Part shown: in pieces, positions 4,835 through 48,969 of the stretch
Layout of the letters: every line of letters begins with the position of its first letter
Position numbering within the stretch: position 1 is the first letter of the stretch
DNA from: Rugalucina vietnamica
Taxonomy: Eukaryota; Mollusca; Bivalvia; Lucinida; Lucinidae
Reading direction: 5' to 3'
Assembly (NCBI GenBank): GCA_964017185.1
Contig: OZ024872.1
Span: 60,071,817-60,135,816, forward strand
Length of the DNA: 64,000 bases
Made by a program: the position numbers and the translations under genes
The notes under the pieces: generated by a model
The model's database searches: none
Told to the model about the DNA's origin: nothing
The model's input: the letters and a program-made list of their open reading frames with translations, nothing else

Positions 4835-4882
4835 AGTGATATTGGCACTAATAAGCAAGTCACAATGAACATACACAAAAGT

Positions 4883-5548: not shown

Positions 5549-5551
5549 CTT

Positions 5552-8050: not shown

Positions 8051-9099
8051 CACTTTTTTGACCCGACAACAACCGGGAAATGAAAGGAGACATAATAACC
8101 TTTAATTTGATATCAAATTTAGCCTTTAGAATCATGGGTGTATTTTTCGTCAAAACTAAGCCTCGTACGAGTTTCATCGTCCCAACTATATTTGCTTGCT
8201 TTTTATGAGTTTACTACAGGGCACACTAGGATGAAACAATAAAATGGTTAAATGCATTTTGAGGTCTCTTGTCTACGTGTAGATGTCAAAAAATGTCCTT
8301 TGAATTTAAACTGTAATTTTAATGTATGTACAACAAGCCAATTTCAATATTTCGTTTTGCAATAGATTGAACTATTTTGATTTTTGCAAGATATGTTTAT
8401 CTATGTTTGAAAAATATATTGCATGGATTATATTTTTTCTAAGTTGTTTTTCTTTAAAAATATTCGCAAATTTAAGAAAAAGTGCCATTGGTTTTACCCC
8501 AGGTATCTTTCAAGGCGTCTATTTCGAAGTGTTTATTTCTTTCGTGAATTCTTTTGGCATCATTATAAAGGGGAAATGTAGCCCTTTCAATCAAGGTATA
8601 ATACAACAACCTATAATGTCTATTAACAAAGTTATAACACCTATGATAGAACTTTCTGACCTACCCTCGTATTTACTATACATCATAAAATAAAATAAAA
8701 CATTTGACGTTCACAAAATTTGCAAAATCAAATTTTTGGGCCTTAGATTATTTTAAGGAGTAGATGTGTCTTGGATTGTGTTATAATATTAAATCAGTTT
8801 GACATAAATATAAGAGCTGCCAAATATTTCAAATTTAATTTTAATAACATAAAATGTATATGAATTCCAGAATACCCCTTTTGCCAGATGTATTCTGATA
8901 AAATATTTAAAAAAAAAGAAAAAAAAAAAAAAAATCTACACGCAGATTTATGCCGAAAAATGTAAAATAAAGAGGTTTACACGATGTTTTTGCATGTATC
9001 AAATGTTTTATTTTACAGAGAATGCATGCAACAGATTTTCTATTCAAATAACAAAGAAGCTATCAGAAACACTCAAACTTTTGGTGGGAAACCTATGAA
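8051..9099. other. AT-rich stretch, nothing recognised
   Basis: It contains a poly(A)-rich tract near 8910-8935 and an open frame at 8322-8693 with low-complexity, hydrophobic composition typical of chance AT-rich translation. I do not call a gene. Confidence 0.4.
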
Positions 9100-9353
9100 T
9101 TCTTCCAGAATTCTTTGAAAATCCCTTTTGTGTGTAATAATTGAAAATTGTTTCAGAAATATTTTGATATTTAATATTTTTGCTCAAACGGTTGATTGTG
9201 GGTTCATGTTTTAACCACCTCAGTGAGGTGGTTCTAACTAGTACCAACAATCTATGTTTTGGATCAAAAATACCCCTATAAAAATACATTTTCACTATAT
9301 AAAAGTGGGGTGTAAGGGGGTACTCATTGCATGGATAAGTTTGCATGCTTTTA
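9100..9353. mobile_element. Hairpin MITE family P, copy 1 (degenerate, interrupted)
   Basis: This resembles the copies at 41895, 54537 and 62073. The diagnostic core is a palindrome around GTTAGAACCNCCTCAGTGAGG, with TTTTTGCTCAAA on the left, its inverse on the right, and a GGGGTATAC-like tail. This copy is diverged (ACCACCTCAGTGAGGTGGT) and ends where a mariner-ended MITE starts. Confidence 0.65.
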
Positions 9354-10370
9354 TTGAGGGGCGTTCGGAAAGTTCGAATAATTGTTTGATCATTCAACTA
9401 ATATTCATAGTAATACAAAAAGAAACATACCTAAAACTTCAACATGTCCTCTATAAATGCTGTGAAAACCAAGATGATGCACAAAGACATAATAAAAATA
9501 TGTTCATTACAAAAAGGTGTGGTATGGATACCCGGAGCACGCCAACGTCAAGATGACGTTGCGAAGACGTCAAACTTTCTTTTAATCCAGTTGGCGATGA
9601 TCACACTTTCTCAACATAAACACCAACAATATCTACGCATTTAATGTGTCTGTTCATTCTTTGTTATAAGTTTTCGTAACCAGTATCAGTATGTAGTGAT
9701 ACAGCTCCCTGAGTCTATTTTGCTAATATTCTCCGCTGAATCATCAAATTTTTCGCAAATTTTAATGGAACACAATTCCACTGTCGGTTGGTTGCTCCTA
9801 AAATCGCCGCCAGTTTCTTTTATTCCACTCTTAAAACATGCAAACTATTTGTACATAAATGTTGAACTATATTATTTATAGTTTTCCAGTTTATTTTACC
9901 ATCTTAAGTGTCTCTGTGTGTGTTTTATGAAGAAAATACAGATGTTCATAATCTTTTGCAACGCAACGACACAATTTGAAGTCATGGTTTCCCCATACAA
10001 CCCTCGTAATAAAGGACCATAACTTCTTTGTGGAACATCCAATTGACTTTAAATTTTCAGGAAACAGTGTCATGTTGTTGAAATATTACAAGACGATTCC
10101 GTGCTTTTCTGGCGATGAACAAAAAGTCAGAAATTAAGTTTATTTCTTTAAGACTTCGTTTAAAAAAGTGATATTTTTCGGACTGCTCCGGGTACCGATG
10201 ATGACGTTGCCACGACAACCTGTATTTTCGGTTTCTATGATCACTTTTCTTTCTTTTTTCTATCAACAGTTTAGAATAAGTGGAAGTTCACGCACAACAA
10301 CTTTCCGGTACAACGGATGAAAATTATGGGAGATATAACACAATTACACGAACTTTCCGAACAACCTACG
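9354..10370. mobile_element. Mariner-ended MITE 1 (1.0 kb)
   Basis: The ends are imperfect inverted repeats with GTTCGGAAAGTTCG conserved about 7-10 bases in. TA flanks both sides (9352-9353 and 10371-10372). GAGGGGCGTTCGGAAAGT-type tips and a TA target are typical of mariner/Tc1 elements. No transposase frame is recognisable, so this is a non-autonomous or decayed copy. Confidence 0.7.
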
Positions 10371-10831
10371 TATATCCACTTTTAGGTGAAATTGAAACTT
10401 TTGAAAGGTGAAGGCTAGGGTTTTGAAAAAAAAGGTACAAGTAGGCAAAGATCAGGAAAAGGTGCAATCAGAAAAAAGATTCTTAGAGATAGGAAAATAC
10501 AAACTGATTGCTAGCAATCCCTGAGGATTGGAAAAATAAGAGCATTAAATGAATGTACGCGGAGAGTTTTTTTGGGCCGCCACACGGCACAACCACAAGA
10601 ACTCTGATATAAAAAGGTACAAGTAGGCAAAGATCAGGAAAAGGCGCAATCAGAAATTTCATATACAGATTCCTGCATTTTTTTCATGACGGAATTATGC
10701 CCCTTTCTGTGTGATGTCCTTTTGAAACAAAGCTTGAAAATCATGTGTGCAAGATAACTCAGAAAGAATTTGAGCTATAGACTTTATATTTGGTATACTG
10801 ATTTGAGCCGAGAGGAATTGATCAGCCGATT

Positions 10832-10838
<7 letters not shown>

Positions 10839-10873
<35 letters not shown>

Positions 10874-11123
10874 ATTCAGTTTAACGTCCCTTTCAAGATT
10901 AATTCAGCTCATATGAGACGGGCCAATCAGTAGGTGGGGCGAAAACGGGAGAACCCCGAGAAAAACCACCTGACACACCCGCAAGCAGAACTTGGCTTGT
11001 CTCACATGTGGCCAGAGCGGGGCTCGAACCCACACCAGACACAGCGGTGAGATGATCGAATTATTAAGTGCGGTAATGAAATATCAGCGCTCTTAACCAC
11101 TCGGCCACGGGGGCAGCCCACCT
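10839..11123 (-). mobile_element. tRNA-derived SINE, copy 1
   Basis: On the minus strand the head is GTGGCCGAGTGGTTAAGAGC (A-box region) and GGTTCGAGCCCC (B box), resembling Ser/Leu tRNAs. A conserved-looking body follows (GGTGGTTTTTCTCGGGGTTC), then the tail GGGACGTTAAACTGAATC and poly(A). An 11-bp target duplication, GATTAACTTTT, flanks it (10828-10838 and 11124-11134). The body resembles SINEs with shared core domains reported in molluscs; which core domain it is I cannot say without a database. Confidence 0.9.
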
Positions 11124-11175
11124 GATTAACTTTTGAAGACTCCCTGTCAAAATTTGACAGAATTACAGAATTTTG

Positions 11176-11255
11176 AATTTTTGTGTGTTTGTATTGAGGC
11201 TGAATGTCCCAGTCAACAATTTTTCAGTCATGTTGGGACGGAGCCAACACTTCCT
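11176..11255 (-). repeat. Truncated SINE-like 3' end, copy 1
   Basis: It shares TCATGTYRGGACGGAGCCA and CTTCCTGGG with 14412-14510. On the minus strand it would end in CTCAA/CAAA-type repeats after a GGACNTTAAAC-like motif. No tRNA-like head is visible. Confidence 0.45.
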
Positions 11256-11398
11256 GGGTTTAACCAGTATTGTACGGAGTTTATGTGTGTCTTTACTACG
11301 TTTTAACTTGTCTGCAAAAAGCCTGCATTCTGTTGAACAAACATATGTTGTGCCAGGTTAGGAGCAAGCATACAGTGGGTGCATTGTGTTTTACTATA

Positions 11399-12434
11399 TA
11401 CGAGGGGCGAGCAAAAAGTTTGAGGACTTTCTTAATAATTTTTATAATTGACGTTCGATCGTTTTCATATTTTCACAAGTGTAATAATGGTCTATTGTCT
11501 ATATTCATGCAGAATATTATTTGTCGAATCTTACTTTTGATTGGTTAAATTACGTCGACAAACAAGTGGGGTTTGCTACCACGGAGCACGCTGTAAAATC
11601 TCTGTTTACATGTTTATAAATATATAAAATATTTAAAAAATGCCCTATCAAAATCTCCTAAAATTATAGAAATATTGATAGTTATATAATTCGGCTTGAA
11701 ATGTGAAATTGCTTGAAATGTGAAATGTCTGTCCTCACTTTCAAAAGACAATGCTACAGCGACACTTTTTGGAAGACAAGTGTAAGCAAAAATTCAGTAA
11801 AAATGACGTTACTGATAAATGGCGGAAACTCGCACATCAATAAAATTTGTTTGAGACTTCCGAATAAAACCTACAGAAACGTTGAATTTGTTATAAACAG
11901 ATAGAGACACATTAGAACTTAATGATTTAACATTGTTCAATGATGTACAAAGTGTCAGTCACAAAGAAATAGCTGTTAAAAACAACAAGTAAGCAAAAAA
12001 TCTACGTCAAACAACAGCATGGCATGCCCCGGACCCGGATAATCCTAAAGTCTGTTACAGTTGTTATAAAAACTAAAAACTTCTATCGATTTGCCTTAAG
12101 CTCTTGACTGTAATCCTGCATGAATGGGAAATAAAGATGTGAAACTTTGCTTGAAGTCGAATGAGAAATAATGTATTTATAGGAACTTTTGACTAGGCCA
12201 ATGTATACAGAAATCCCAGTGTCAAATGACATTAACGTCTTGGCTTGCTCTGGGTAGCGCTAACACCCATCGAACAAATTGTCATAACAACAACGTTTAT
12301 CAAGTGATTTGTCTGAAACTTTCCCTGTTAGTTCATATGAAATTGACTGCAAAGATACGGTGATTTTAGATAAATCTCATCAGTACTTTTGATTTTATTA
12401 ACAAAGTCCACAAACTTTTTGCTCGCCCCTCGTG
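11399..12434. mobile_element. Mariner-ended MITE 2 (1.04 kb)
   Basis: Terminal inverted repeats of about 38 bp start ACGAGGGGCGAGCAAAAAGT and are nearly perfect, with TA on both sides (11397-11398 and 12435-12436). This is a mariner-type end. No intact transposase is present; the longest internal frames are about 60 codons without a D,D(34)D pattern that I can see. Confidence 0.75.
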
Positions 12435-12753: not shown

Positions 12754-14267
12754 TTAGCTCACCTGAGCCGTTAGGCTCTCAAGGTGAGCTTATAGGATGG
12801 CCATGATCCGGCGTCCGTCCATCGTCCGTTGTCCCTCGTCGTCCACCATTTTCAAACATCTTCTTCTCTGAAACGGCTTGGCCAATCAAAGCCAAATTTA
12901 ATATGAAGCATCTATAGGAAGGGGGAACCAATGTGTATATAAATAATCCAGGTCACATGACCAAGATGGCCGCCATGCCCATATATAGTAAAAACCCTTC
13001 AAAAATCTTCTTCTCCAGAACCAGTGGACCGATTTCAAAGAAACTTTGCATGAAGCATTGATGGCTCAAGCACTACAATGTATATTTAAATCATGACCCT
13101 GTGATGACCTTGACCTATTTTACGACAAGGTCAACATAGGTCGCCAATGCATTTGAATGAGGAAATCTTTGAAAATGTTATTTAAAGTGAAAGTATTGCT
13201 GGGAATGGGCAGTAGGACTGAATATTAATGATTCTGAAAAAAATTGGACCCACGGGGCTCATCTGCCCCCGCCCCTGGGCATTATGTATGTATATTACCA
13301 TAATATTCAAACATCTTTTCCTCTGAAACTGCTTGGCCAATCAAAGCCAAAATTTATGTGAAGCATCTATAGAATGGGAGAATCAATGTGTATATAAGAA
13401 ATCCAGGTCACATGACCAAGATGGCCGCCATGCCCATGTATGGTAAAAACCCTTCAAAAATCTTCTTCTCTGCAACCGGTGGATCGATTTCAACGAAACT
13501 TGGCATGAAACATTGATGTCTAAAGTACTACAATGTATATAGAAATCATGACCTTGTGGTGACCTTGACCTATTTTAAGACAAGGTCAACATAGGTCACC
13601 CATGCATTTGAATGGGGGAAAACTTCTAAAAAGTCATTTGAGGTGAAAATCTTGCAGGAAATGGGTAGTAGGACTGAATATTAATGATTCTGAAAAAAAA
13701 TAGGACCCAAGGGCTTATATGGCCACACCCCGGGGCAATATACATGTTTTTAACCATAATATTCAAACATCTCCTCTGAAACCACTTGGCCAATTAAAGC
13801 CAAATTTTATGTGAAGCATCCATAGGATGGGGGAACCAATGTATATATTAATAATTAAGGTCACATGACTAAGATGGCTGCCATGGCCATATATGGTAAA
13901 AACCCTTAAAAAATCTTCTCTGAAACCAATAGACTGATTTCAAAAAAACTTTGTGTGAAGCATTGATGGCTAAAGTACTCCAATGTATATATAAATCATG
14001 ATCCTGTGATGACCTTGGCCAATTTATGGCAAGGTCAAAATGGGTTGCCTATGCATTTGAATGGGGAAAACTGTTAAAATGTCATTTGAAGGGAAAAGCC
14101 AGCAGGAAATTGGCAAATGGACAGAATATTGATTATTCTGAAAAAAGAAAATGGCCCAAGGGCTAAATCTGTCCCTGCACTGGGGTTAAATACCATAATA
14201 TTCAAACATGTTTATTGGTATATGCAGCAGATCTCAGGTGAGCGTTTACAGGACCATTGGTCCTCTG
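12754..14267 (+). mobile_element. F1 copy A (Helentron-like non-autonomous element)
   Basis: The head is TTAGCTCACCTGAGCC with hairpin partner GGTGAGCTTATAG, then a CGTCCGTC microsatellite. Three units of about 470 bp follow, each with GGTCACATGACCAAGATGG, GATGACCTTGACC and CAAGGTCAACAT. The tail is CTCAGGTGAGCG, the inverse of the head, then GGACCATTGGTCC and CTCTG; the terminal CTGG is mutated to CTGT. Confidence 0.8.
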
Positions 14268-14738
14268 TTTTTTTTTCTAGCCAGTAGACCTCATTGTCAA
14301 GTTTATGAGACAGAGTCGCCAACTGAAACACAGAAAGTGTGATCTCCTTGGTTTGGTTAAAGCAGCTAACTTTTGTGGTGAATTTGGTGAGTGATTTGTC
14401 ATGTTCTGTTTGTATATTTTGTTTGTTTGTTTTGAGGTTTAAGGTCCAAATCAACAATATTTCTCTGTCATGTCAGGACGGAGCCACCTCTTCCTGGGGT
14501 TTTGATTTAATGTCACTCCAAAAGTTGATGTCATACAGATCCAGAAGATTGGTTTAAAGTGTCATCAAAAAAAACTGAAGAAGCACCACATTGAACACAG
14601 AAAGTTACTGTAAATTCGGAAATTATTGCGTGACTTTTACTTCTGAAAATTTTTATTTCTGAGTCATTCGTGAGGTCCTAAATTTGGGAATGAATCTTTA
14701 TATGATAGTTCGTCTCTCACTAATGAGAAAGACCATCA
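14268..14738. other. Mostly unannotated; truncated SINE-like tail at 14412-14510
   Basis: 14412-14510 is a second copy of the fragment at 11176-11255. On the minus strand it carries GACCTTAAACCTCAAAACAAAC, a SINE-style 3' tail. The remainder shows nothing. Confidence 0.4.
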
Positions 14739-16785: not shown

Positions 16786-17902
16786 CAGTAGCAGTTAAAC
16801 TGACCTGACCAATCTTTATATAGTCTTTATGACTAGTTACATTGTCATTGCATTTAATTAATACCAATTGTAACTCTATAAGGTCTTTCAGTAGCCTAGA
16901 TACATTTGTTTTTAGCTCACCTGAGCCATTAGGCTCACAAGGTGAGCTTATAGGATGGCCATGATCCGGCGTCCGTCCGTCGTCGTTGTCGTCGTCCTCC
17001 ACCATTTTCAAAGATCTTCTTCTCTGAAACGGCTTGGCCAATCAAAGCCAAATTTTATATGAAGCATCTATAGGAAGGGGGAACCAATGTGTATATAAGA
17101 AATCAAGGTCACATGACCAAGATGGCCGCCATGCCCATATATGGTAAAAACCCTTCAAAAATCTTCTTCTCCAGAACCGGTGGACCGATTTCAACGAAAC
17201 TTGGCATGAAGCATTGATGGCTCAAGCACTTCAATGTGTATATAAATCATGGCCCTGTGTTGACCTTGACCTATTTTACAGCAAGGTCAACATAGGTCGT
17301 CAATGCATTTGAATGGGGAAAACTTTTAAAATGTTATTTTAAGTAAAAGTCTTGCAGGAAATGGGCAGTAGGACTGAATATTAATGATTCTGAAAAAATT
17401 TGCACCCCAGGGGCTCATATGCCCCCACCCCGGGGCAATATACATGTATATTACCATAATATTCAAACATCATCTCCTCTGAAACCACTTGGCCAATTAA
17501 AGCCAAATTTTATGTGAAGCATCAATAGGAAGGGATAACCAATGTATATATAAATAATCAAGGTCACATAAGCAAGATGGCCGCCATGCCCATATATGGT
17601 AAAAACCCTTCCAAAATCTTCTTCTCCGGAATCGGTACACTGATTTCAAAGAAACTTGGCATGGAGCATTGATGGCTCAAGTACTACAATGTGTATATAA
17701 ATCATGACCCTGTGATGACCTTGACCTTTTTTATGGCAAGGTCAACATAGGTCGCCAATGCATTTGAATGGGGAAAACTTTTAAAAAGTAATTTGAGGTG
17801 AAAATCTTGCAGGAATGGGTAGTTTGACTGAATATTAATGATTCTGAAAAAAAAAATGGACCCAAGGGGCTCATATGCCACCACCCCGGGGCAATATACA
17901 TG

Positions 17903-18517
17903 TTTGTTATATGACTGAAGAAAATCCTTTCTGCTGATTGGCTTATTCAGTTTTAATAAATCTTAATATTTGCTTAAAAACAAGACCAAACTAACGAAAA
18001 CCAGATCAAACCAGTACCTCGAGGTTAATTATTTTGACAGTTTTTCTATATTAACTTCTCAAATCTATATTACCCTCCTGAATAGCATCACCATGAAATC
18101 AGCATGGGCTAGGTGAAATCGACATGATTTGCTGTATGTGTATAAACCTGCCAGTTAGCTATAAATAGCCTGAACTCATTTCAGTTCATGAAATCTACAT
18201 GCTTTGCAGTAACAAACTTTTACAGGTAAACAAAGCACTAGATAATGAGTTGTATTTGGTGATAGTTAAGGGATAATTTTGTTTATTTTTCATAAGAACC
18301 TATGTTGTTGGTACTCATTGAAATTGTCTTGTCGTGGTGATTTTTATGAGTACCCATAACATAGGATTTATTAAGATCTAACAAAATTATTCTTCAATTA
18401 TAATCAATTGCTCCTCTTTATCTAGCCTTGTTTCACATCTGTTATGATTCTGTTCATTTCTATTTTACATGAAAATATAAAATAAACATTAAAACAGTGG
18501 AAAAGTCATATAACAAA
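17903..18517. mobile_element. 615-bp TIR element inside F1 copy B
   Basis: Perfect 14-bp inverted ends, TTTGTTATATGACT (17903-17916) and AGTCATATAACAAA (18504-18517). No ORF of note. The hairpin at 18520-18661 is immediately adjacent, and the two may be one unit, since together they fill the gap in copy B. Confidence 0.55.
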
Positions 18518-18519
18518 AC

Positions 18520-18661
18520 AGTTATTGACTTCAATTTCGGTAGATATAAGGATTTATCTACCTTCAAAAGTGATATTCACCTTGGCCTGCGGCCTCGGTG
18601 AATATCACTTTTCTCAGGTAGATAAATCCTTATATCTACCTCATTGAAGTCAATAATTGTA
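18520..18661. repeat. Long near-perfect hairpin (about 142 bp)
   Basis: The arms pair outward from a CTTGGCCTGCGGCCTCG loop region: GGTGAATATCACTTTT, GGTAGATAAATCC, TTATATCTACC and ATTGAAGTCAATAATTGT on the right match inverses on the left. This is a foldback MITE or the terminal palindrome of the neighbouring element. Confidence 0.75.
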
Positions 18662-19196
18662 TAATATTACCAAAATATTCAAACATCTTCTTCTCTGAAA
18701 CCACTTGGCCAATCAAAGCCAAATTTTATGTGAAGCATTTATAGAATGAGGGTACCAATGTGTATATAAATGATCCAGGTCACATGACCAAGATGGCCGC
18801 CATGCACATATATGGTAAAAACCCTTCCAAAATCTTCTTCTCTGGAACCGGTGGACCGATTTCAACAAAACTTGGCATGAAACATCAATGGCTTAAGTAC
18901 TACAATGTATATATAAATCATGACCCTGTGATGACCTTGACCTATTTTACGACAAGGTCAACATAGGTTGCCTATGCCTTTGAATGGGGATAACTGTTAT
19001 TTGTCGGTTGAAGGGAAAGACTTGCAGGAAATTGGCAAATGGACAGGATATTGATTATTATGAAGAAAGATAATGGACACCAGGGAATCATCTGCCCCTT
19101 TACTGGGCCTTTTTTCCATAATATGCAAACATGTTTATTGGTATATATGTACAACAGATCTCAGGTGAGCGTTAACAGGACCATTGGTCCTCTGGT

Positions 19197-22100
19197 TTAA
19201 CTCACCTGAGCCGAAGGCTCACAGGTGAGCTTATAGTAAACCCATGCTCCTGCGTCCGTCCGTAGTCGTCTGTAGTCCTCCGTCGTTGTCCGTCCGTCGT
19301 CCATCGTCCACAATTTCAAAGATCTTCTCCTCTGAAACCGCTTGGCCAATCAAAGCCAAACTTCATGTGGAGCATCCTTAGGAAGGGGGAACGAAAGTTT
19401 ATATACATGGTCCAGGTCACATGACCAAAATGGCCGCCATGGCTATAAATAGCAAAAACCTTTAAAAATCTTCTTCTCCAGAACCAGTAGGCCGATTTCC
19501 ACGAAACTTGGTATGTAGCATCGGGGATGCGGGCCCATCATAGTTTATATAAATCATGACCCTAGGATGACCTTGACCTGTTTTACGGCAATATCAACTT
19601 AGGTCGCCAATGCATTTGAATGGGAAAAAATGATAAAATGCTATTTAATAGGTAAAACTTACTGGGAATAGGCAAATGGACAGAAGATTAATGTTAATAG
19701 AAAATTTTAGCCCCTGGGGGTTGTCTACCCCTGCCCCGGGGCTATATACATGTATATTTCCATAATAATGAAACATCTTCTTTCCTGAAACTGTTTGGCC
19801 AATCAAAGCCAAACTTCATATGGAGCATCCTTGGGAAGGGGGAAGGAAAGTTTATATAAATGGTCAAAGTCTTATGACCAAGATGGCTGCCATGGCTATA
19901 AATAGAAAAAAAACTTTAAAAATCTTCTTCTCCAGAACCAGAAGGCCAATGATTTTGAAACTTGGTGTGAAGCCTCAGGCAATGGAGCTCTACAAAGTTT
20001 TTATAAGTCATGACCCTGGGATGACCTTGACCTATTTTACGGCAAGGTCAACTTAGGTCTCCCATGCATTGGAATGGGGAAAAAAGGAAAATGTAATTAA
20101 ATGGCAGAAAACTTGCTAGAAATGAGCAAATGGACAGAAGATTTATGTTTAAGAAAATATTTTGGGTGCAGGGGATTGTCTGCCCCTGCCCCGGGGCTGT
20201 ATACATGTATATGACCATAATATTGAAACATCTTCTTCTCTGAAACCGCTAGGCCAATCAAAGCCAAACTTTTTGTGGAGCATCCTTAGGAAGAGGGAAT
20301 GAAAGTTTATATAAATGGTCAAGGTCACATGACCAAGATGGCGGCCATGGCTATAAATAGCAAAATTTTTTTAAAATCTTCAGAACCAGAAGGCCTATGA
20401 TTTTGAAACTTGGCATGAAGCATTAAGGAACGGAGGTCTACAAAATTTGTATAAATCATGACACAGGGATGACCTTGACCTATTTCACGGCAAGGTCAAC
20501 TTAGATCGCCCATGCATTTGAATGGAGAAAATTGTTAAAATGTCATTTGAAGGACAAAACTTGCTAGGAATGAGCAAATGGACTGAATTTTTATGATTTG
20601 AAAAGACATTGACTCCAAGAGTTATTCTGACCCTGCCCTAGGATTATTAGCTCACCTGAGCCGAAGGCTCACAGGTGAGCTTATAGTATACCCATGATCC
20701 GGCGTCCGCCCGTCGTCTGTCGTCCGTCTTCTTCTCTGAAACTGCTTGGCCGATCAAGTTGAAATTTTATGTGGAGCCTCCTTGGGTAGTGGCATTGAAA
20801 TATTGTTCACGATATCTTGGTCACATGACCAAGATGGCCACCACGCCCATATATGGTAAAAACCACTCAAAAATCTTCTTCTCCAGAACCGGTGGGCGAT
20901 TTCCATGAAACTTGGTATGTAGCATCGGGGACTTCAGCCCATCATAGTTTGTTAAAATGATGACCCTTGGATGACCTTGACCTATTTTACGGCAAGGTCA
21001 AATTTGGAAACATAGGCATTTACATGGGAAAAAGTTAAAACTATGGATTTTTTGAAAACTATTGCAGCCTGAAGCCTGAAAAGTGGTAGATGCAAACAAC
21101 TAATGGAGTAGATGAAGGTATGTGATTAATTTAGGTCAAGGTCATCTCTTGACCTTGGCCAGTCTGTTGTCCATACACACTTTTCAAAGATCTTCTTTTC
21201 TGAAACTGCTTGGCCAATCAAAGTGAAATTTTATGTGGAGCATCCATGGGTAGGGGGAACGAAAGTTTGATCCCGAAATCTAGGTCACATGTCCAAGATG
21301 GCTGCCACGCCCATATATGGTAAAAACCACTCAAAAATCTTCTTCTCCAGAACCGGTGGGCCGATTTCCACGAAACTTGGTATGTAGCATCGGGGATTTC
21401 AGCCCATCATAGTTTGATAAAATGATGACCCTTGGATGACCTTGACCTATTTTACGGCAAGGTCAAATTTGGAAACATAGGCTTTTACATGGGAAAAAGT
21501 GAAAACTATTGATTTTTTGAAAACTATTGCAGCCTGAGGCCTGAAAAGTGGTAGATGCAAACAACTAATGGAGTAGATGAAGGTATATGATTAATTTAGG
21601 TCAAGGTCATCTCTTGACCTTGGCCAGTCTGTTGTCCATACACACTTTTCAAAGATCTTCTCTGAAACTGCTTGGCCAATCAAAGTGAAAGTTTATGTGG
21701 AGCATCCATGGGTAGGGGGAATGAAAGTTTGATCGCGAAATCCGGGTCACATGACCAAGATCGCCGCCGCGCCCATTTATGGTAAAAAACACTCAAAAAT
21801 CTTCTTCTCCAGAACCGGCTCGCTGATTTTCGCGAAACTTGGTATGTAGCATTTGGGACTCCAGCCCATCATAATTTGTTGAAATAATGATCCTAGGATG
21901 ACCTTGACCTATTTTACGGCAATGTCAATTTTGGAGACATAGGCATTTACATGGGAAAAGGTGAAAACAGTGGATATTTTGGAAACTGGTGCAGCCTGAG
22001 ACCTGAAAGTTGCTAGATGCAGACAACTAATCGAGTCAATGGAGGTAAGTAATTAGTCAAGGCCAAGGTCATTTCTTGACCTTGACCCAAGGTCATTTAA

Positions 22101-22397
22101 ATATCAAAATTAGAATTATGGTTTTCTCAGAAATCACTAGGTTTGGAAACTGTTGCAGCCTGAGACCTGAAACTTTGCAGATGCAGACAACTTATGAAGT
22201 CAATAAAGGTGTGTGAGTATTCAAGGTCAAGGTCATTTCATGATGACTTAATACTCTAAGATCAGGCTTCAGGTGAGTGTTCTCAGGACCAATGGTCCTC
22301 TGGTATACATGCATTGTACCATTCTGGTCTAACAAGTTTATTGGTACATGTATATATCTCAGGTCTCAGGTGAGCGTTTACAGGACCATTGGTCCTC
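19197..22397 (+). mobile_element. F1 copy C, interrupted by copy D
   Basis: The head (TTAACTCACCTGAGCC) begins one base after copy B ends. Units carry GCTATAAATAGC-type centres. The body stops at 20646 and resumes at 22304 (TATACATGCATTG), with the tail TCTCAGGTGAGCG, GGACCATTGGTCC at about 22360-22397. Copy G gives the uninterrupted version of the junction (in its orientation GGTTATATACATGC). Confidence 0.8.
20647..22303 (+). mobile_element. F1 copy D, nested in copy C
   Basis: A complete copy with head TTAGCTCACCTGAGCC, three tandem units of about 465 bp, and tail GGCTTCAGGTGAG, GGACCAATGGTCC, CTCTGG. Flanks GGATTA and TATACATG join exactly to the empty site seen in copy G, so no target duplication was made. 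Confidence 0.85.
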
Positions 22398-22712
22398 TCA
22401 GGTTCGTATACCCATTAATGTTTTCGTATTTTTTCTCTAAAGTTGAAGGTTTTTTAATACACTTAAAACTACTAAAAAAAATAAATGACAAATTGTGATA
22501 CAGGATGGTATGATATTGCCCTAGACACCATTTGATGCCATTTTCAGCACAATATGAGTTTTGTTTGTTTTTAGGGTTTACTAATTTAATTGTTTCTTTT
22601 ATTCTCTCACAAACTTCTGAAGTTGTCATTAAAATTCATGAAATTTAACATCAGATTATTCTTATATCATACATCAGGGCCATAGTACATCGCCATAGCA
22701 TATACCCCCTTT
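22398..22712. repeat. Short piece related to repeat R
   Basis: AAAATTCATGAAATT, ATCATTCTTA-like and GGTCATAGTACATTGCCAT-like phrases match about 2160-2240. Nothing else is recognised. Confidence 0.4.
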
Positions 22713-25306
22713 TTAGCTCACCTGAGCCGAAGGCTCACAAGGTGAGCTAATAGGATAGCCATCATCGGGCGTCCGTCCGTCCGTCCGTCGTCCATCCGTC
22801 GTCGTCCACAATTTCAAAGATCTTCTTCTCTGAAACCGCTTGGCCGATCTAGTTGAAATTTTATGTGGAGCCTCCTTGGATAGTGGCATTTCAAGTTTGA
22901 TCGCGAAATCCAGGTCACATGACCAAGATGGCCGCCATGCCCATATATGGTAAAAACCACTCAAAAATCTTCTTCTCCAGAACTGGTGGGCAGATTTCCA
23001 CGAAACTTAGTATGTAGCATTGAGGACCTCAGCCCATCATAGTTTGATATAATGATGACCCTTGGATGACCTTGACCTATTTTATGGCAAGGTCAAATTT
23101 GGAAACATAGGCTTTTACATAGGCAAAAGTGAAACTATGGATTTTTTGAAAATTATTGCAGCCTGAGGCCTGAAAAGAGGTAGATGCAAACTAATGGAGT
23201 AGATGAAGGTATGTGATTAATATAGGTCAAGGTCATCTCTTGACCTTGGCCAGTCTGTTGTTCATACACACTTTTCAAAGATCTTCTTCTCTGAAACTGC
23301 TTGGCCAATCAAAGCGAAATTTTATGTGGAGCATCCATGGGTAGGGGAGACGAAAGTTTATTAGCGAAATCCAGGTCACATGACCAAGATGGCCGCCACG
23401 CCCATATATGGTAAAAACCACTCAAAAATCATCTTCTCCAGAACCGGTGGGCCGATTTCCACGAAACTTGGTATGTAGCATCGGAGACCTCAGCCAATCA
23501 CAGTTTGATAAAATGATGACCCTTGGATGACCTTGACCTATTTTACGGCAAGATCAAATTGGAAACATAGGCTTTTACATGAGAAAAAGTGAAAACTATG
23601 GATTTTTTTTAAAACTATTGCAGCCCGAGGCCTGAAAAGTGGTAGATGCAAACAACTAATGGAGTAGATGATGGTATAGGATTAATATAGGTCAAGGTCA
23701 TCTCTTGACCTTGGCCAGTCTGTTGTTTATACACACTTTTCAAAGATCTTCTTCTCTGAAAATGCCTGGCCAATCAAAGTGAAATTTTATGTGGAGCATC
23801 CATGGGTAGGGGAGACGAAAGTTTGATCGCAAAATCCATGTCACATGACCAAGATGGCCGCCACGCCCATATATGGAAAAAACACTCAAAAATCTTCTCC
23901 AGAACCGGTGGGCCGATTTCCACGAAACTTGGTATGTATTATCAAGGACCTCAGCCCATAATAGTTTGATAAAATGATGACCCTTGGATGACCTTGACCT
24001 ATTTTACGGCAAGGTCAAATTTGGAAACATAGGCTTTTACATAGGAAAAAGTGAAAAGTATGGAGTTTTTGAAAACTATTGCAGCCTGAGGCCTGAAAAG
24101 TTGTAGATGCAAACAACTAATGGAGTAGATGAAGGTATGTGATTAATATAGGTCAAGGTCATCTCTTGACCTTGGCCAGTCTGTTGTCCATACACACTTT
24201 TCAAAGATCTTCTTCTCTGAAACTGCGCGGCCAATCAAAGTGAAATTTTATGTGGAGCATCCATGGGTAGGGGAGACAAAAGTTTGATCGAGAAATCCAG
24301 GTCACATGACCAAGATGGCCGCCACGATCATATATGGTAAAAACCACTCAAAAATCTTCTTCTCCAGAACCGGCAGGCCAATTTTCATGAAACTTGGTAT
24401 GTAGCATCGGGGACATCAGCCCATCATAGTTTGATAAAATGATGACCCTTGGGTGATCTAGACCTATTTTATGGCAAGGTCAAATTGGAAACATAGGCTT
24501 TTACAAAGGAAGAAGTGAAAACTATGGATTTTTTTGAAAACTATTGCAGCCCAAGGCCTGAAAAGTGGTAGATGCAAACAACTAATGGAGTAGATGAAGG
24601 TATGTGATTAATATAGGTCAAGGTCATCTCTTGACCTTGGCCAGTCTGTTGTTCATACACACTTTTCCAAGATCTTCTTCTCTGAAACTGCTTGACCAAT
24701 CAAAGCGAAATTTTATGTGGAGCATCCATGGGTAGGGGAGACGAAAGTTTATTAGCGAAATCCAGGTCACATGACCAAGATGGCCACCACGCCCATATAT
24801 GATAAAAACCACTCAAAAATCTTCTCCAGAACCGGCAGGCCAATTTTCATGAAACTTGGTATGTAGCATTTGGGACTCCAGCCCATCATACTTTGTTGAA
24901 ATGATGACCCTATGATGACCTTGACCTATTTTACGGCAAGGTCAATTTTGGAAACATAGGCTTTTACATGGGAAAAGGCAAAAACAAACTGTTGCAGCCT
25001 GAGACCTGAAAGTTGCTAGATGCAGACAACTAATGGAGTCAATGAAGGTTAGTAATTACTGAAGGCCAAGGTCATGTCATGACCTTGGCCCAAGGTCATT
25101 TAAATATCAAAATTAAAATTATGGTTTTCTCAGAAATCATTGGGTTTGGAAACTATTGCAGTCTGAGACCAGAAACTTTGCAGATGCAGACAACTTATGA
25201 AGTCAATAAAGGTGTGTGAGTATTCAAGGTCAAGGTCATTTCATTATGACTTAATACTCCAATATCAGGCTTCAGGTGAGTGTTTTCAGGACCAATGGTC
25301 CTCTGG
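22713..25306 (+). mobile_element. F1 copy E (five tandem units)
   Basis: Head at 22713; CGTCCGTCCGTCCGTC microsatellite; then units of about 463 bp. The phrase ACACACTTTTC recurs at about 23268, 23733, 24193 and 24656. Units are very similar to each other, which suggests recent unit amplification. The tail GGCTTCAGGTGAG, GGACCAATGGTCC, CTCTGG ends at 25306. Confidence 0.85.
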
Positions 25307-25986
25307 TTTCCACAACATTTCTCCATTTTTATGCCCCCAACTATGCTCACCTGAGACCTGAGATATATACATGTACCAATAAACTTGTTAGACTAGAATG
25401 GTACAATGCATGTATATAACCCTAGGGCAGGGTCAGAATAACTCTTGGAGTCAATGTCTTTTCAAATCATAAAAATTCAGTCCATTTGCTCATTCCTAGC
25501 AAGTTTTGTCCTTCAAATGACATTTTAACAATTTTCTCCATTCAAATGCATGGGCGATCTAAGTTGACCTTGCCGTGAAATAGGTCAAGGTCATCCCAGT
25601 GTCATGATTTATACAAATTTTGTAGACCTCCCTTCCATAATGCTTCATGCCAAGTTTCAAAATCATAGGCCTTCTGGTTCTGAAGATGAAGATTTTTAAA
25701 AATTTTGCTATTTATAGCCATGGCAGCCATCTTGGTCATGTGACTTTGACGATTTATATAAACTTTCATTTCCTCTTCCTAAGGATGCTCCACATAAAGT
25801 TTGGCTTTGAGTGGCTAAGCAGTTTCTGAGAAAAAACTGTTTGAATATTATGGTCATCTACATGTATATAGCTCCGGGGCAGGGGCAGACAACCTCTGGG
25901 CCTAAAATATTTTCATAAGCATAAATCATCTGTCCATTTGCTCATTCCTAGCAAGTTTTCTGCCATTACATGACATTTTCCTATTT

Positions 25987-28964
25987 TTAGCTCACCTGAG
26001 CCGAAGGCTCACAAGGTGAGCTTATAGGATGGCATTGATCCGGCGTCCGTCCGTCCGTCGTCGTCCGTTCACATTTTCAAAGATCTTCTCCTCTGAATCC
26101 ACAGGGCCAATGAGAGCCAAACTTCATGTGGAGCATCCTTAGGAAGGGGGAACGAAATTTTATATAAATGGTCCAGGTCACATGACCAAGATGGCCGCCA
26201 TGGCTATAAATAGCAAAAACCTTTAAAAATCTTCTTCTCCAGAACCAGTGGGCCGATTTCCACGAAACTGGGTATGTAGCATTGGGGACGCGGGCCCATT
26301 ATAGTTTATATAAATCATCACCCTAGGATGACCTTGACCTATTTTATGGCAAGGTCAACTTAGGTCGCCAATGCATTTGAATGGGAAAAAATGGTAAAAT
26401 GCTATTTAATGGGTAAAACTTACTGGGAATAGGCAAATGGACAGAAGATTAATATTAATGGAAAATTTTAGCCCCTGGGGGGCATACATGTGATATCTCC
26501 CGATCTCATCGTATTTCCACGAATTTTAGAAACCTTTCCCGATGGTCCCCCGATATGCTTTGCCTTCCGATTTGCCAAAAAGTCTGTTTGTATGCACTTT
26601 ATTGCACTTAATGTAAGAAAAAAAATTATCCAGGGGTGACCAGTTTTTATGTAAAGTGTAGTATAAATATGGCGTGCGTTCGTAGTTTTTTCCAATGGTA
26701 AAAATGGTACCATTGGTAGACAAATTCCGTTCAAGGTTTTACCAATGGTACCATTGGTAATGCCATTGGTACCAATGGTACCAATGTTACCAACATACGG
26801 CAGCAAATGGTGCAGACAGAAAACAGTGTGGGAAATTATTCTACCGACGTGGGAAAAGTCATTTGATTCAATATGGCGAGCCTAAAAATATATCATGAAT
26901 TTCGTACATAAGCAATATTTTTGTCATACAAGCAAATGTAAGTGTTATAAATAACACAATATACATGAAGTAAATAAGAAAGACAAAAACAAGTGAGGTG
27001 TATTGATCAATATGATAAAAATTCCACCATGTGATCTACCAATGGTACCATTGGCAGCAGAAAAACGTTCAGGGTTTTCTGGTTACCATTGGTAAAAATG
27101 GTACCAACAGTACCATTGGTAGATTTGCAGATTTTACCATTGGGAGAACCCAGAACGTAGCCATGGTATCGGATTAACCCAATAATGCGTGTCACTGAGA
27201 GAATCTACCTCGAGGCTATTTATAGAGGTGTCTGTGTAATTAAAATAATTGTTGTTTACAGGACGCATTAGGCAATCTGGATGTTTTAATTGATGTTATG
27301 AGTTAAAAGAAGTGGATTATGATAAAAATTGACATTTAATAATTGGATAATTACAAGCAATTATGGAACCACTAAAAAATGCTGTTATATTTACGGCAGC
27401 GGGTCAATACTAGACAGAATATTTCCATCGGTATTCCGTTAGACCTCTCCATACCGAGAGAGGAGCGAGGTCACGAAGTGTATCGGAGTGCAGGTTAGCC
27501 AGCTGATCCAGGTCAATACCAACTGATGTAAGTAAAATTTGTGTAAATTAATGTTTTTTTTTTTGTTTTTGTTTTTTTTATTCTGAAATAATCTCCCGAT
27601 ATAAGGACCAAAATACGAATTCAAACTAAAATCCTCCCGATTGGAGACTGTGGAAAGATCACATGTATGCTGGGGGGTTGTCTGCCCCTGCCCCGGGGCT
27701 ATATACATGTATATTTCCATAATAATGAAACATCTTCTCCCCTGAAACCACTTGGCCAATCAAAGCCAAACTTCATATGGAGCATCCTTGGGAAGGGGGA
27801 AAGAAAGTTTATATAAATGGTCAAAGTCACATGACCAAGATGGCTGCCATGGCTATAAATAGAAAAAACCTTTAAAAATCTTCTTCTCCAGAACCAGAAG
27901 GCCAATGATTTTGAAACTTGGTGTGAAGCATCAGGCAATGGAGCTCTACAAAGTTTATATAAATCATGACCCTGAGATGACCTTGACTTTTTACGGCAAG
28001 GTCAACTTAGGTCACATATGCATTTGAATGGGAAAAATAGGAAAATTTCATTTAATGGCAGAAAACTTGCTAGGAATGAGCAAATGGATAGAAAATTTAT
28101 GTTTATGAAAATATTTTTGGCCCAGGGGGTTGTCTGCCCCTGCCTTGGGGCTATATACATGTATATGACCATAATATTCAAACATCTTCTCTGAAACCGC
28201 CAAACTTTATGTGGAGCATCCTTAGAAAGAGGGAATGAAAGTTTGTATAAATGGGTAAGGTCACATGACCAAAATGGCCGCCATGGCTATAAATAGCAAA
28301 AACCTTTGAAAATCTTATCCAGAACCAGAAGGCCTATGATTTTGAAACTTGGCATGAAGCAGCAGGCAATGGAGCTCTACAAAGTTTGTATAAATCATTA
28401 CCCTGGGATGACCTTGACCTATTTTACGGCAAGGTCAACTTAGTTCACTAATGCATTCGAATGGGAAAAAATAGTAAAATGGAATTAAATGTAGGAAACG
28501 TGCTGGGAGTATGCAAATGGACAGAAAATTTATGTTTATGGATAAAAAATTGACCCCAGGAGGTTGTCTGCCCCTGCCCTGGGGCTATATACATTTATAT
28601 GACCATAATATTCAAACATCTACTTCTTCGAAACCGCTATACCAATAAAAGCCAAACTTTAAGTGGAGCATTGTTAGGAAGAGGAAATGAAAATTTATAT
28701 AAAAGGTCAAGGTCACATGACCAGGATGGCTGCCACGGCTATAAGTAGCAAAAACCTTTAAAAAATTTTTCTCCAGAACCAAAAGGCCTATGATTTTGAA
28801 ACTTGGCATGAAGCATCACTGCATCAGGCAATAGAGCTTTATAAAGTTTATATAAATCATGACCCTGTGATGACCTGGACCCATTTTATGGCAAGGTCAA
28901 CTTAAGTCACATATCCCAGATCTCAGGGGAGCATTTATAGGACCATTCATGATTGGTCCTCTGG
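25987..28964 (+). mobile_element. F1 copy F, nested in G and carrying a hAT-type element
   Basis: The head is at 25987; the tail (CTCAGGGGAGC, GGACCATTCATGATTGGTCC with an expanded loop, CTCTGG) ends at 28964. Units contain GCTATAAATAGC. The 1.19-kb insertion at 26483-27669 splits its first unit. Confidence 0.85.
26483..27669. mobile_element. hAT-type non-autonomous transposon
   Basis: The inverted ends CATACATGTGAT and ATCACATGTATG (12 bp, perfect) are flanked by a perfect 8-bp duplication CTGGGGGG (26475-26482 and 27670-27677). Eight-base duplications and CA-starting tips are hallmarks of hAT transposition. TCCCGAT motifs recur near both ends, like subterminal binding sites. Two interior blocks (26694-26790 and 27038-27150) are packed with ACCAATGGTACCATTGGT palindromes. 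No transposase is present. Confidence 0.85.
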
Positions 28965-30259
28965 TTTCCCATTCAAATGCATGGGCAACCTAAGTTGACC
29001 TTGCGGTTAAATAGGTCAAGGTCATCCCAGGGTCATGATTTATATAAACTTTGTAGAGCTCCATTCCCAGATGCTTCATTCCAAGTTTCAAAACCATAGG
29101 CCTTCTGGTTCTGAAGAAGATTTTTAAACGTTTTTGCTATTTATAGCCATGGCGGCCATCTTGGTCATGTGACCTTGACCATTTATACAAACTTTCATTC
29201 CCTCTTCCTAAGGATGCTCCACAAAAAGTTTGGCTTTGATTGGCCTAGCGGTTTCAGAGAAGATGTTTCAATATTATGGTCATATACATGTATACGGTAA
29301 AGCCCCGGGGCAGGGGCAGACAACCCCCTGGGCCCAAAATATTTTCTTAAACATAAATCTTCTGTCCATTTGCTCATTTCTAGCAAGTTTTCTGCCATCT
29401 AATTACATTTTCCTATTTTTTCCCATTCCAATGCATGGGAGACCTTAGTTGACCTTGCCGTAACATAGGTCAAGGTTAATACAGGGTTATGATTTATATA
29501 AACTTTGTAGAGCTCCATTCCCAGATGCTTCACACCAAGTTTCAAAATCATAGGCCTTCTTGTTCTGAAGAAGATTTTTAAAGTTTTTGCTATTTATAGC
29601 CATGGCGGCCATCTTGGTCATGTGCCTTGACCATTTATATAAACTTTCATTCCCACTTCCCATGGATGCTCCACATGAAGTTTGGCTTTGATTGGCATAG
29701 CGGTTTCGGAGAAGAAGATGTTTGAATATTATGGTCATATACATGTATATAGCCCCGGCAGACAACCCCCCAGGGGCTAAAATTTTCTATTAACATTAAT
29801 CTTCTGTCCATTTGCCTATTCTCAGTAAGTGTTACCCATTAAGTAGTATTTTACCATTTTTTCCCATTCAAATGTATTAGCGACCTAAGTTGACCTTGCC
29901 GTAAAATAGGTCAAGGTCATCCTAGGGTCATGATTTATATAAACTATGATGGGCCAGCGTCCCCGATGCTACATACCAAGTTTCGTGGAAATCGGCTCAC
30001 TGGTTCTGGAGAAGAAGATTTTTAAAGGTTTTTGCTATTTATAGCCATGGCAGCCATCTTGGTCATGTGACCTGGACCATTTATATAAACTTTCGTTCCC
30101 GCTTCCTAAGGATGCTCCACATGAAGTTTCGCTTTCATTGGCCAAGCGGTTTCAGAGGAGAAGATCTTTGAAATTGCGGACGACGGACGACGATGGACGG
30201 ACGCCGGAGCATGGGTATACTATAAGCTCACCTGTGAGACTTAGGCTCAGGTGAGCTAA

Positions 30260-32054: not shown

Positions 32055-32753
32055 TTAGCTCACCTGAGCCGAAGGCTCATAGGTGAGCTTATAGTATACC
32101 CATGCTCCGGCATCCGTCCGTCACAATTTCAAAGATCTTCTTCTCTGAAACCGCTGGGCCGATTGTTCTCATATTACACATACACCATCTACATATAGGG
32201 CGAAAGAATAATTGTGTTTTTTGTTTTGATCGGATAAGAACTCTGGTTGCTATGGCAAATTATGCTTCCCATAGACTTATAATGGAAAAAAGTGAAAATT
32301 GCCAGTTTTTGCTGTCTTGTTGGAGATATTTGAATTTTGTTTTTGCAGAAATGTTTATTGAGTAGTCCTCTCATGTTTATTGAGTAGTGACTTTTCAGGG
32401 GCCCCATATAGGGCAAAATTTCGAAAACATTCAAAAATCTTCTTCTCAGAAACTGTCAAGGGGATTAAGCCTGTATTTTGTATACATGTTCCTGACAGTG
32501 GCCTCTACATAATTTGTGTTTTTTATTCCAGGCGGATAAGAACTCTGGTTGCTATGGCAACTGAAAGTTTCCATAGACTTATAATGGGAAAAGTTGAAAT
32601 TGACTATTTCTGCGGTCCAATTGCAGATATTTGAATTTTGTTTTTGTAGAAATGTTTATTGAGTAGTGCTCAATGTTTATTGTTACTTTTGTCCTAATTC
32701 TTTATTATGTCTCCCCCCGACAGGGTCGGGAGACATATTGTTTTTCCCCGTGC

Positions 32754-32796
<43 letters not shown>

Positions 32797-35039
32797 ACAA
32801 ATCGTGTCCGCTCTATAACTTGAAAACCGTTAAAGATCTTTCAATGAAACTTGGTACACTTGTAAACCACGACGAGACGATGTGTCATGCATAAGAACCA
32901 TAACTCTAGCTTGACTATTTTTGGAGTTATTTCCCTTTGATTATTTTCGATACAATTTCGTGTCCGCTGTATAACTTGAAAACCGTTTAAGATTTTTCAA
33001 TGAAACTTAATACATTTGTAGACCACGACGAGTCGATGTGTCATGCACAAGAACCATAACTCTGGCTTGAGTATTTTGGAGTTATTTCCCTTTGATTATT
33101 TTCGATACAATTTCGTGTCCGTTGTATAACTTGAAAACCGTTTAAGATTTTTCAATAAAACTTGGTACACTTATTGAGCATGATCAGACGATGTGTCATG
33201 CACAAGAACCATAACTCTGGCTTGAGTATTTTATGAGTTATTTCCCTTTGATTATTTTCCATACAATTTCGTGTCCGCTTTATAACTCGAAAATCGTAAG
33301 AGTTATTTCAATGAAACTTGGTACACTTATAAAGCACGATGAGATTACGTGTCGTGCTAAAGAACCATATCTCTTGCTTGCATATCTTTGGAGTAATTTC
33401 CCTTTGATTATTTTCCATACAATTTCGTGTCCACCCTATAACTTGAAAACCGTAAGAGAAATTTCAGTGAAACTGGGTACACTTATAAAGCATGATGAGA
33501 CGATATGTCATGCACAAGAATTATAACTCTTGCTTTCATAGCTTTGGAGTAATTTCCCTTTGATTATTTTTCCATACAATTTCATGTCCACTCTATAACT
33601 TGAAAACCATAAGAAATATTTCAATGAAACTTGGTACACTTATAAAGCATGATGAGATGATGTGTCGTGCTAAAGAACCATACTCTTGCTTGCATATCTT
33701 TGGAGATATTTTCCTTTGATTATTTTTCATTCAATTTCGTGTCTGCTCTATAACTCAAAAACCATTTTTGAATTTTCAGAGATTTTTCAATGAAACATGG
33801 TACACTTATAAAGCATGATGCACAAGAATCATTACTCTTGCTTTCATATCTTTGGAGTTATTTCCCTTTGATTATTTTCCAAACACTTTCGTGCCCCCTC
33901 TATAACTTGAACACCGTAAGAGATATTTCAATGAAACTTGGTACACTTATAAAACAGAATGACAGGATATGTGATACACAAGAACTATAACTTTTGCTTG
34001 CATATTTTGGACATGCACATAGAAAGGGGGGAGACATCAGTTTTCACATAGAAAACAAATTCTAGTTTTGATTGGTTGTTGGGGCCCCATACAGGGCAAA
34101 ATTCAGAAAAACATTCAAAATTCTTCTCCTCAGAAACTGTCATAAGGGTGAAGCCTGTACTTTGTATACATGTTCCTGACAGTAGCCTCTACATAATTTG
34201 TGTTTATTATTCCAGTCGGATAAGAACTGTGGTTGCTATGGCAACTTAAAGTTTCCATAGACTTATAATGGGAAAAGTGGAAATTAGCTATTTTTTGAAA
34301 ACTATTGCAGCCTGAGATCTGAAAAGTGGTAGATGCAAACAACTAATGAATTAGATGAAGGTATATGATTATTTTAGGTCAAGGTCATCTCTTGACCTAG
34401 GTCGGTCTGTCGTCCATACACACTTTTCAAAGATTTTTTTCTCTGAAACCACTTGGCCAATCAAAGCCAAAATTTATATGAAGCATCTGTAGGAAGTGGG
34501 AACCAATGTGTATATAAATAATCCAGGTCACATGACCAAGATGGCCGCCATGCCCATATATGGTAAAAACCCTTAAAATATCTTTTTCTTTAGAACCGGT
34601 GAACAGATTTCAACGAAACTTTGCATGAAGTATGGATGACTCAAGTGCTACAATGCATATATAAATCATGAGCCTGTGGTGACCTTGACCTATTTTATGG
34701 CAAGGTCAACATAGGTCGTCAATGCATTTGAATGGTGAAAACTTTTAAAATGTCATTTAAAGTGAAAGTCTTGCAGGAAATGGGCAGTAGGACTGAATAT
34801 TAATGATTCTGAAAAAAAAATGGACCCCAGGGGCTCATCTGTTTTTAAAATGTTATTTGAAGGAGAAAACCAGCAGGAAATTGGCAAATGGACAGAATAT
34901 TGATTATTCTGATAAAAGAAAAGCGCCCAAGGGCTTCATCTGCCCCTGCACTGGGGTTAAATACCATAATATTCAAATATGTTTATTGGTATATGAAGCG
35001 GATCTCAGGTGAGCGTTTACGGGACCATTGGTCCTCTGG
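32055..35039 (+). mobile_element. F1 copy H, inserted in repeat R and carrying F2
   Basis: Head at 32055. The first units are a divergent type with AACTCTGGTTGCTATGGCAA; the last units are the standard type with CACATGACCAAGATGG. The tail CTCAGGTGAGCG, GGACCATTGGTCC, CTCTGG ends at 35039. Repeat R resumes directly with TTGACATATTTTATTGATAT. F2 (32708-34065) lies inside. Confidence 0.8.
32708..34065 (+). mobile_element. F2, Helentron-like non-autonomous element
   Basis: The head hairpin TGTCTCCCCCC...GGGAGACA (32708-32735) is followed by TCTGTCTGTC repeats. About eight tandem units of about 155 bp follow (TTTCGTGTCCRC, TATAACTTGAAAACCGT, AATGAAACTTGGTACACTTA). The tail has GGGGGGAGACA (34026-34036, inverse of the head), the hairpin GTTTTC-ACATA-GAAAAC (34040-34056) and AAATTCTAG, then T. 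Confidence 0.8.
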
Positions 35040-48943: not shown

Positions 48944-48969
48944 TTACTCTTCTGATAAGTAACTCCTGG

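Follow-up and report, generated by a model that had tools for sequence, protein, structure and literature searches.

The 64-kb window analysed here (C4:60071817-60135816 of a 1.09-Gb assembly in 47 contigs) holds many copies of a repeat that we call F1, several of them lodged inside others, and the question it raises is what kind of mobile element F1 is and what moves it. The original prediction, made from the window alone, was that F1 is a non-autonomous Helentron-like family. This view is borne out by a Rep-PIF1 helicase relative that has the same ends, and by insertion without target duplication. From these sequence comparisons, F1 is almost certainly a family of HINEs, the non-autonomous class of Helentrons, and most likely moves by their mechanism. 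Copies were analysed in a contiguous 264 kb composed of the window and the adjoining segments L009-L028; joined positions below refer to this region unless another source is named.

F1 copies and their ends

The following features lie in the window:

12754-14268, plus strand: F1 copy, tail CTCTGT
16912-19195, plus strand: F1 copy whose tail runs directly into the following head (CTCTGG TTT AACTCACC)
19197-22400, plus strand: F1 copy hosting D; tail degenerate (CTCTCAGG), end approximate
20647-22303, plus strand: F1 copy D, lodged in another F1 copy at A^T (TTA^TATAC)
22713-25306, plus strand: F1 copy with a type B head
25345-30259, minus strand: F1 copy G, interrupted by F; left end approximate, tail hairpin missing
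25987-28964, plus strand: F1 copy F (a HINE), TTAGC...CTCTGG, inserted at T6 in the reverse-oriented copy G
26482-27670, no strand assigned: TIR element (GCATACATGTGAT...) inside F, with a 6-7 bp target duplication
32055-35039, plus strand: F1 copy broken by a member of HINE family F2
32705-34065, plus strand: HINE family F2, with ATGTCTCCCCCC...GGGAGACAT head, ...AAATTCTAG tail and ~156-bp repeats
46294-53087, plus strand: F1-type copy L, lodged at a T6 of a central repeat; its tail hairpin is a variant (GGCCGATAGGCC TCTGG), and its interior holds F1 copy 47405-48943 and a non-LTR retrotransposon
47405-48943, plus strand: F1 copy inside copy L
48907-52233: non-LTR retrotransposon frames (RVT_1) inside copy L, starting at the F1 tail (48943)
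55126-56607, plus strand: HINE family F3, with ATAGCCCC...GGGGCTATA head and ...CAATTCTAG tail
58131-58743, plus strand: short F1 copy (613 bp)

Copies D, F and L each run from TTAGCT to CTCTGG, which confirms the TTAGC and CTCTGG limits first proposed for them, and the coordinates given for copy F (25987-28964) proved exact. An F1 copy begins with TT-AGCTCACCTGAG-CCGAAGGCTCA-C(A)AGGTGAGCTTATAG and a CGTC microsatellite, continues with a centre of tandem repeats of ~454-465 bp (shorter in type C copies), and finishes with CTCAGGTGAGC-GTTTACA-GGACCATTGGTCC-TCTGG, after which comes a T. The CTCAGGTGAGC near the 3' end is an inverted copy of the 5' AGCTCACCTGAG, so that both ends carry subterminal inverted repeats, and a hairpin, GGACCA-TGGTCC, stands directly before TCTGG. 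Ten of 17 tails have an exact 3' inverted copy and the other seven a degenerate one; copy F is among the latter (CTCAGGGGAGC). The head of copy L reads AGCTTACC. The final four bases, taken from 30 tails found with a loose pattern in the 264 kb, are CTGG in 17, CTTG in five, CTAG in four, ATGG in two and CTGT and CTCA in one each, and hence have the CTRR form in 21 of the 30. The end structure originally described, an inverted head followed by a hairpin and CTGG, is confirmed; the inverted copy of F is degenerate and the hairpin of L a variant.

Folding of single-stranded DNA gave modest values for two F1 tails (-6.6 and -4.7 kcal/mol; z -1.85 and -1.19) and a strong hairpin for the head of copy 58131 (-13.5 kcal/mol, z -5.4). 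A family-free structural scan of the 264 kb made 20 calls on the plus strand, corresponding to 17 different heads, one of them the reverse reading of copy G, and a single call on the minus strand that we judged spurious; three Markov-shuffled controls gave 0 calls each. The window itself has only four frames of at least 150 aa, none recognised as Rep or helicase. Searches of viral contigs and of prokaryote genome contigs returned 0 matches to F1 heads in each, in collections from which the records of near relatives are possibly absent.

Insertion without duplication and ownership of the flanking T

It had been claimed that D, F and L insert without target duplication and that joining their flanks restores uninterrupted sequence. 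We cut 11 elements out of the 264 kb and compared the joined flanks with uninterrupted sites, scoring an empty site as ungapped when the junction was spanned with no gap within 12 nt. Ungapped empty sites accounted for 3 of 6 spanning sites for copy D (best 98.3%), 38 of 46 for copy F (best 91.6%) and 25 of 38 for copy L (best 97.5%). Among those for F is 29361-29476, which contains the T6 at 29416-29421 singled out earlier, and among those for L is 21456-21575. The remaining elements gave 6/6 at 67877, 25/38 at 104374, 1/2 at 215914 and a weak 1/2 (73%) at 82761; only gapped empty sites were found for 115822 (0/1), 32055 (0/2) and 97941 (0/1), and no site at all for 58131. Many of the sites for F, L and 104374 represent a single position within paralogous repeats and are not independent, so insertions rather than sites should be counted, and 7 of the 11 elements tested have at least one ungapped empty site. 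No fixed-length target duplication appeared for D, F, L or the others. The assay is able to show duplications, since the TIR element inside F, which served as a positive control, needs 6-7 bases removed before its empty site is restored. The claim of insertion without duplication therefore holds for all three copies.

The same comparison assigns the T residues that flank the element. In 23 of the 37 heads examined on the two strands together, AGCTC is preceded by exactly five T, and among 35 plus-strand heads the five positions before AGC are T in 33, 31, 32, 34 and 34. The empty sites assign two of the five T to the element, and the usual host site is therefore TTT^TT. Ahead of the element, T fills each of three host positions in 31-33 of the 35 plus-strand heads, and the next base outward is at background (0.01 bits). 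Beyond the 3' end, T is the first base in 28 of 30 tails and the second in 23 of 30; the two right flanks that lack it, near 22400 and at 110536, both follow degenerate tails. At 115822 and at one of the two 215914 sites the joined flanks are one T shorter than the empty site, which suggests a net gain there of one T and not two. Three insertions lie at atypical sites, D at A^T, 67877 at G^T and 97941 at G^T (the last judged from a left flank that is an older CTCTGG), and they fit an element-owned TT because they have no host TTT and yet carry exactly TT. The F1 rule is thus an element of the form TT...CTRR with TTT^TT as its usual target, and a 1-bp T duplication would give the identical sequence. 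The preference for T-T sites first proposed is refined to TTT^TT with TT belonging to the element, and D, 67877 and 97941 depart from it.

A coding Helentron with F1 ends

An autonomous Rep-helicase element with the same last 40 bases had been proposed as the relative to look for. A search of the genome with the PF14214 profile yielded 409 candidates, of which 150 were scored; 150/150 lay above the cut-off and none (0) of these lay inside the window. One of the loci proved to be an element with F1 ends:

C4:80762899-80776033 (G000), 13,135 bp: autonomous coding element with head, microsatellite, repeats, 2,621-aa frame and tail

In the joined L034 and L033 sequence its head starts at 1400 and is followed by the CGTC microsatellite and 3.2 units of a 454-bp array, which places both in the 5' leader; the 2,621-aa frame runs from 4027 to 11889 without a stop, and the tail, CTCAGGTGAGCGTTTATAGGACCAATGGTCCTCTGG, ends at 14534. 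The flanks, ATTT before its TT and TCATTC after, fit TTT^T. The protein matches Helitron_like_N (E 2.2e-27), DUF6570, REP_ORF2-G2P and PIF1 (E 7e-18). It contains EFQQRGSPHIHMLVW, which we take to be the HUH motif of Rep, as well as a YIVGYISK stretch. Its C-terminus matches Exo_endo_phos at 23.3 bits, below the Pfam cut-off of 24.5, and there we read by eye what are presumably AP-endonuclease-like motifs. Separately, an N-terminal part of the frame (L034:4027-6498) matches Herpes_teg_N (PF04843), a cysteine protease family, at 28.2 bits (cut-off 25, E 1.7e-6). A coding relative with F1 ends and internal repeats is present in the same genome.

This element is one of many. Twenty further Rep loci were picked from the 150 for the resemblance of the matched domain to that of the first locus, and at each we examined 401 bp around the tail position predicted from the first element. 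An F1 tail was found in this stretch at 14 of the 20, followed by T in 14/14, and was not found within the 401 bp at the other six. Three of the 14 tails have the first form and differ from the first element by one base in the last 60; the other 11 have a second form, 10 of them identical over the last 60 and one with a one-base difference. Between the two parental tail forms, 49-50 of 60 positions are identical. F1 heads and repeats were present in both (2/2) of the 5' stretches examined at these loci. An open frame of at least 1000 aa is found at 129 of the 150 scored Rep places, and because of these frames and the 11/14 tails that are identical or almost so, the Helentron system looks, at the level of sequence, recently active.

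Similarity between F1 and the coding element extends inward from the ends. Positions 19197-20632 are collinear with the start of the coding element at 87.9% (19197-20646, 1446 alignment columns), the first 496 bp of copy F match it at 89.8%, and the first 1066 bp of copy 47405-48943 match another autonomous locus, L056, at 92.7%. Type C copies, which have the tail CTCTAG and shorter repeats, share little with the coding element beyond head and tail (12 copies compared). We compared 17 tails from the 264 kb, ungapped, with the two parental forms. Over the last 40 bases, six match the nearer form at 35-38 positions, which supplies the agreement that had been sought, and six more at 33-35; four type C tails (24-25) and copy F (18) score low because indels put them out of register, the type C tail being shorter and the loop of F longer.

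Published rules place a family at an identical subTIR of at least 11 bp and a subfamily at no less than 80% over the last 60 bp (PMC4067079). CTCAGGTGAGC is identical in 10 of the 17 tails and in both parental forms, and none (0/17) of the tails reaches 80% over the last 60 bp, the best being 47/60 ungapped; F1 tails therefore belong to the same family as the parental forms and not to the same subfamily. The coding element is a parent-type relative of F1, and no direct parent of individual window copies appeared among the tails compared.

A model for F1 movement and the alternatives

We envision a scenario in which internal deletions gave rise to the F1 copies, leaving the leader and the last 40 bases in place. 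The parent's Rep would nick at the 5' TT end of F1, a strand would be peeled off as far as the 3' hairpin and CTRR, and the displaced single strand would be joined into a nick inside a T run. PMC4067079, in its available text, suggests that the endonuclease may make the nick in the target. Of the 37 heads, five form tail-to-head junctions with a preceding copy, and one more such junction lies outside this set:

window 19195-19199
L012:3940
L015:42
L020:6985
L027:1154
L043

Each consists of CTCTGG or CTCTTG, 2-5 T (in one case TTC) and then a new head. They could be concatemers or insertions into T beside an older 3' end, and the sequence is the same either way. Accessible passages in the literature treat tandem Helitron arrays as bypassed termination (PMC4067079) and as a mark of rolling-circle replication (PMC5876387).

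The inverted repeats of F1 could instead mark a MITE-like DDE element with terminal inverted repeats and a target duplication, and elements of like shape were earlier annotated as MITEs, according to the text available from PMC4067079. However, the 3' inverted repeat of F1 is internal, before the hairpin, the empty sites show no duplication and its relative with matching ends codes for a Rep-helicase, so we give this reading practically no weight. The original prediction named fixed-length target duplications and a DDE-encoding relative as observations that would speak against it, and neither occurred in the material tested; the relative encodes Helitron_like_N and PIF1 helicase with an endonuclease-like domain. 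Equally negligible is the proposal that F1 copies spread by segmental or satellite duplication rather than by transposition. The central arrays are indeed tandem, and the region is rich in repeated segments; against this, only five pairs among 37 heads share their upstream flank up to the junction, all of them heads that adjoin another copy's tail, and empty sites were restored for 7 of 11 copies tested.

That F1 is a canonical Helitron (TC...CTRR, A^T target) and not a Helentron would account for the CTRR end of 21/30 tails and for the insertion of copy D at A^T. It is nevertheless very improbable, since F1 begins with TTAGC rather than TC, most heads lie at TTT^TT, subterminal inverted repeats are present and the C-terminus of the coding element is endonuclease-like (the sub-threshold Exo_endo_phos match). 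A fourth reading holds that the element starts with one T and duplicates 1 bp (T) on insertion. T flanks nearly every copy on both sides, and the outcome is identical to that of no duplication. T-flanked sites can for this reason supply no counter-evidence, while both non-T right flanks follow degenerate tails; we think this reading unlikely, if the least so of the four. The preferred reading is a HINE family, presumably mobilized by a Helentron whose ends it shares, with TT at its 5' end.

One-way orientation

Copy G is the sole minus-strand head found in the 264 kb, against 37 on the plus strand. By head type the plus:minus counts are 9:1 for A, 14:0 for B, 7:0 for C, 5:0 for D and 2:0 for others; they omit ten minus-strand matches judged to be palindrome readings of plus heads (nine) or chance (one), and one plus-strand palindrome reading of copy G. 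Both F2 copies (2/2) and the F3 copy (1/1) are also on the plus strand, and the family-free scan agrees with the bias. Unique DNA lies upstream of 14 of 35 plus heads and of the minus head, giving 14:1 in unique DNA. The supply of T runs does not explain this, because unique DNA has 1144 T4 runs on the plus strand and 1149 on the minus, and A runs outnumber T runs among runs of at least five in the whole region (1272 A, 936 T).

GC skew in unique DNA is positive in 8/8 bins of 33 kb (0.001-0.039, overall 0.019), and AT skew is mixed. The GC skew could stem from a genuine strand asymmetry of the domain or from old HINE remnants that escaped detection, and argues weakly for asymmetry. Both strands carry frames resembling TE proteins, and several other repeat families are strand-mixed; some others are one-sided too, mostly tandem arrays. 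A Pfam search of 10 frames, five without a match, showed no host gene spanning the 264 kb. A PHD finger, together with an OTU match that falls short of the cut-off, was observed on the minus strand at joined ~140.7-146 kb (L016:4723-6999, L017:1700-1999), possibly part of a multi-exon gene or of an element. Adjacent autonomous Rep loci within 264 kb were on the same strand in five pairs and on different strands in four (among the 150 scored of 409), which speaks against a general polarity, with little power. Four 10-kb samples from elsewhere contained one F1 head in 40 kb, too few to judge polarity.

These counts raise the possibility, which we hold tentatively and consider rather doubtful, that HINE insertion is strand-selective, at least in this 264-kb domain. 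Transfer would then be into single-stranded DNA exposed on one strand only, which could be the template of lagging-strand synthesis or the strand displaced in a transcribed domain. Such polarity is known for bacterial IS200/IS605 elements, as described in the available text of PMC5371812. A literature search, mostly confined to papers free of subscription, returned no report of orientation polarity for Helitrons or HINEs. If insertion is strand-selective, HINE orientation would preserve, as a fossil record, the direction of forks or of transcription in an animal genome, and if one-way orientation recurs elsewhere, Helentron strand choice could be read from assembled genomes.

Other elements in the region

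The open reading frames at 48913-52236 were considered as a partner for F1 and rejected; they look like the endonuclease and reverse transcriptase (RVT_1) of a non-LTR element. A second F2 copy lies at joined 166335-167864 (L019); the ~156-bp repeats are those of the window copy, and the F2 tail is TTCTAG before T. A fourth HINE-like tail, at ~6856-6891 of the window, has a GTGCCTCTCAAGGCAC hairpin and likewise TTCTAG before T. Interior pieces of the TIR element at 26482-27670 match other places in the genome at up to 99% (at least 46 matches, with 40 of 718 candidates scored).

Comparison with known systems

As far as the available texts describe them, elements of this kind are already known as HINE (PMC4067079) and Cg_HINE (PMC7492417); the present analysis adds the coding relative, the placement of the repeats in its leader, a rule for the T and the orientation polarity. 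The accessible text on Cg_HINE of Crassostrea gigas gives the same order of parts as in F1: 5' subTIR, complementary inverted repeat, microsatellite, variable spacer, satellite-like array in fixed orientation, 3' subTIR and hairpin (PMC7492417). The microsatellite is GTCC or similar in several Cg_HINEs. The two also have in common a T-rich target, the lack of duplication and insertion into repeats. They differ in repeat length, 138-181 bp in Cg_HINE and mostly ~454-465 bp in F1. Pearl elements of bivalves, as described there and compared by description only, also hold central tandem repeats in a HINE-like frame, but their repeats are ~160 bp long.

A further difference, again by description only, is that an autonomous element shares the ends and repeats of F1, whereas none is named for Cg_HINE in that source, which states that none of 10 autonomous elements in Repbase could be related to Cg_HINEs (PMC7492417). 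Our literature search found no paper, in the text available from those retrieved (including PMC7492417, PMC4067079, PMC10294476, PMC12628747 and PMC11136912), that gives an autonomous partner of bivalve HINEs; rolling-circle elements are put at a mean of 5.91% of bivalve genomes in one of them (PMC10294476). The genome studied here holds both satellite-carrying HINEs and a coding element, and because the leader of the coding element carries the repeats, these need not be captured separately by each HINE in this family.

Helraiser and canonical Helitrons resemble F1 in CTRR after a hairpin, the lack of duplication and head-to-tail junctions, and are unlike it in their A^T target and 5' TC, an endonuclease domain being unmentioned in the text available (PMC5876387, PMC4067079). 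Closer to F1 are the HINE/DINE-1 elements of mite, mosquito and Drosophila, for which the accessible text of PMC4067079 describes subTIRs, a 3' palindrome, a TT or T-rich target that is left unmodified and a partner encoding Rep, helicase and endonuclease. In F1, by comparison, the element keeps TT, the host site is usually TTT^TT, and the coding element and the HINE share a tandem array. That same text leaves open which side owns the T, a question that the T rule answers for the F1 family.
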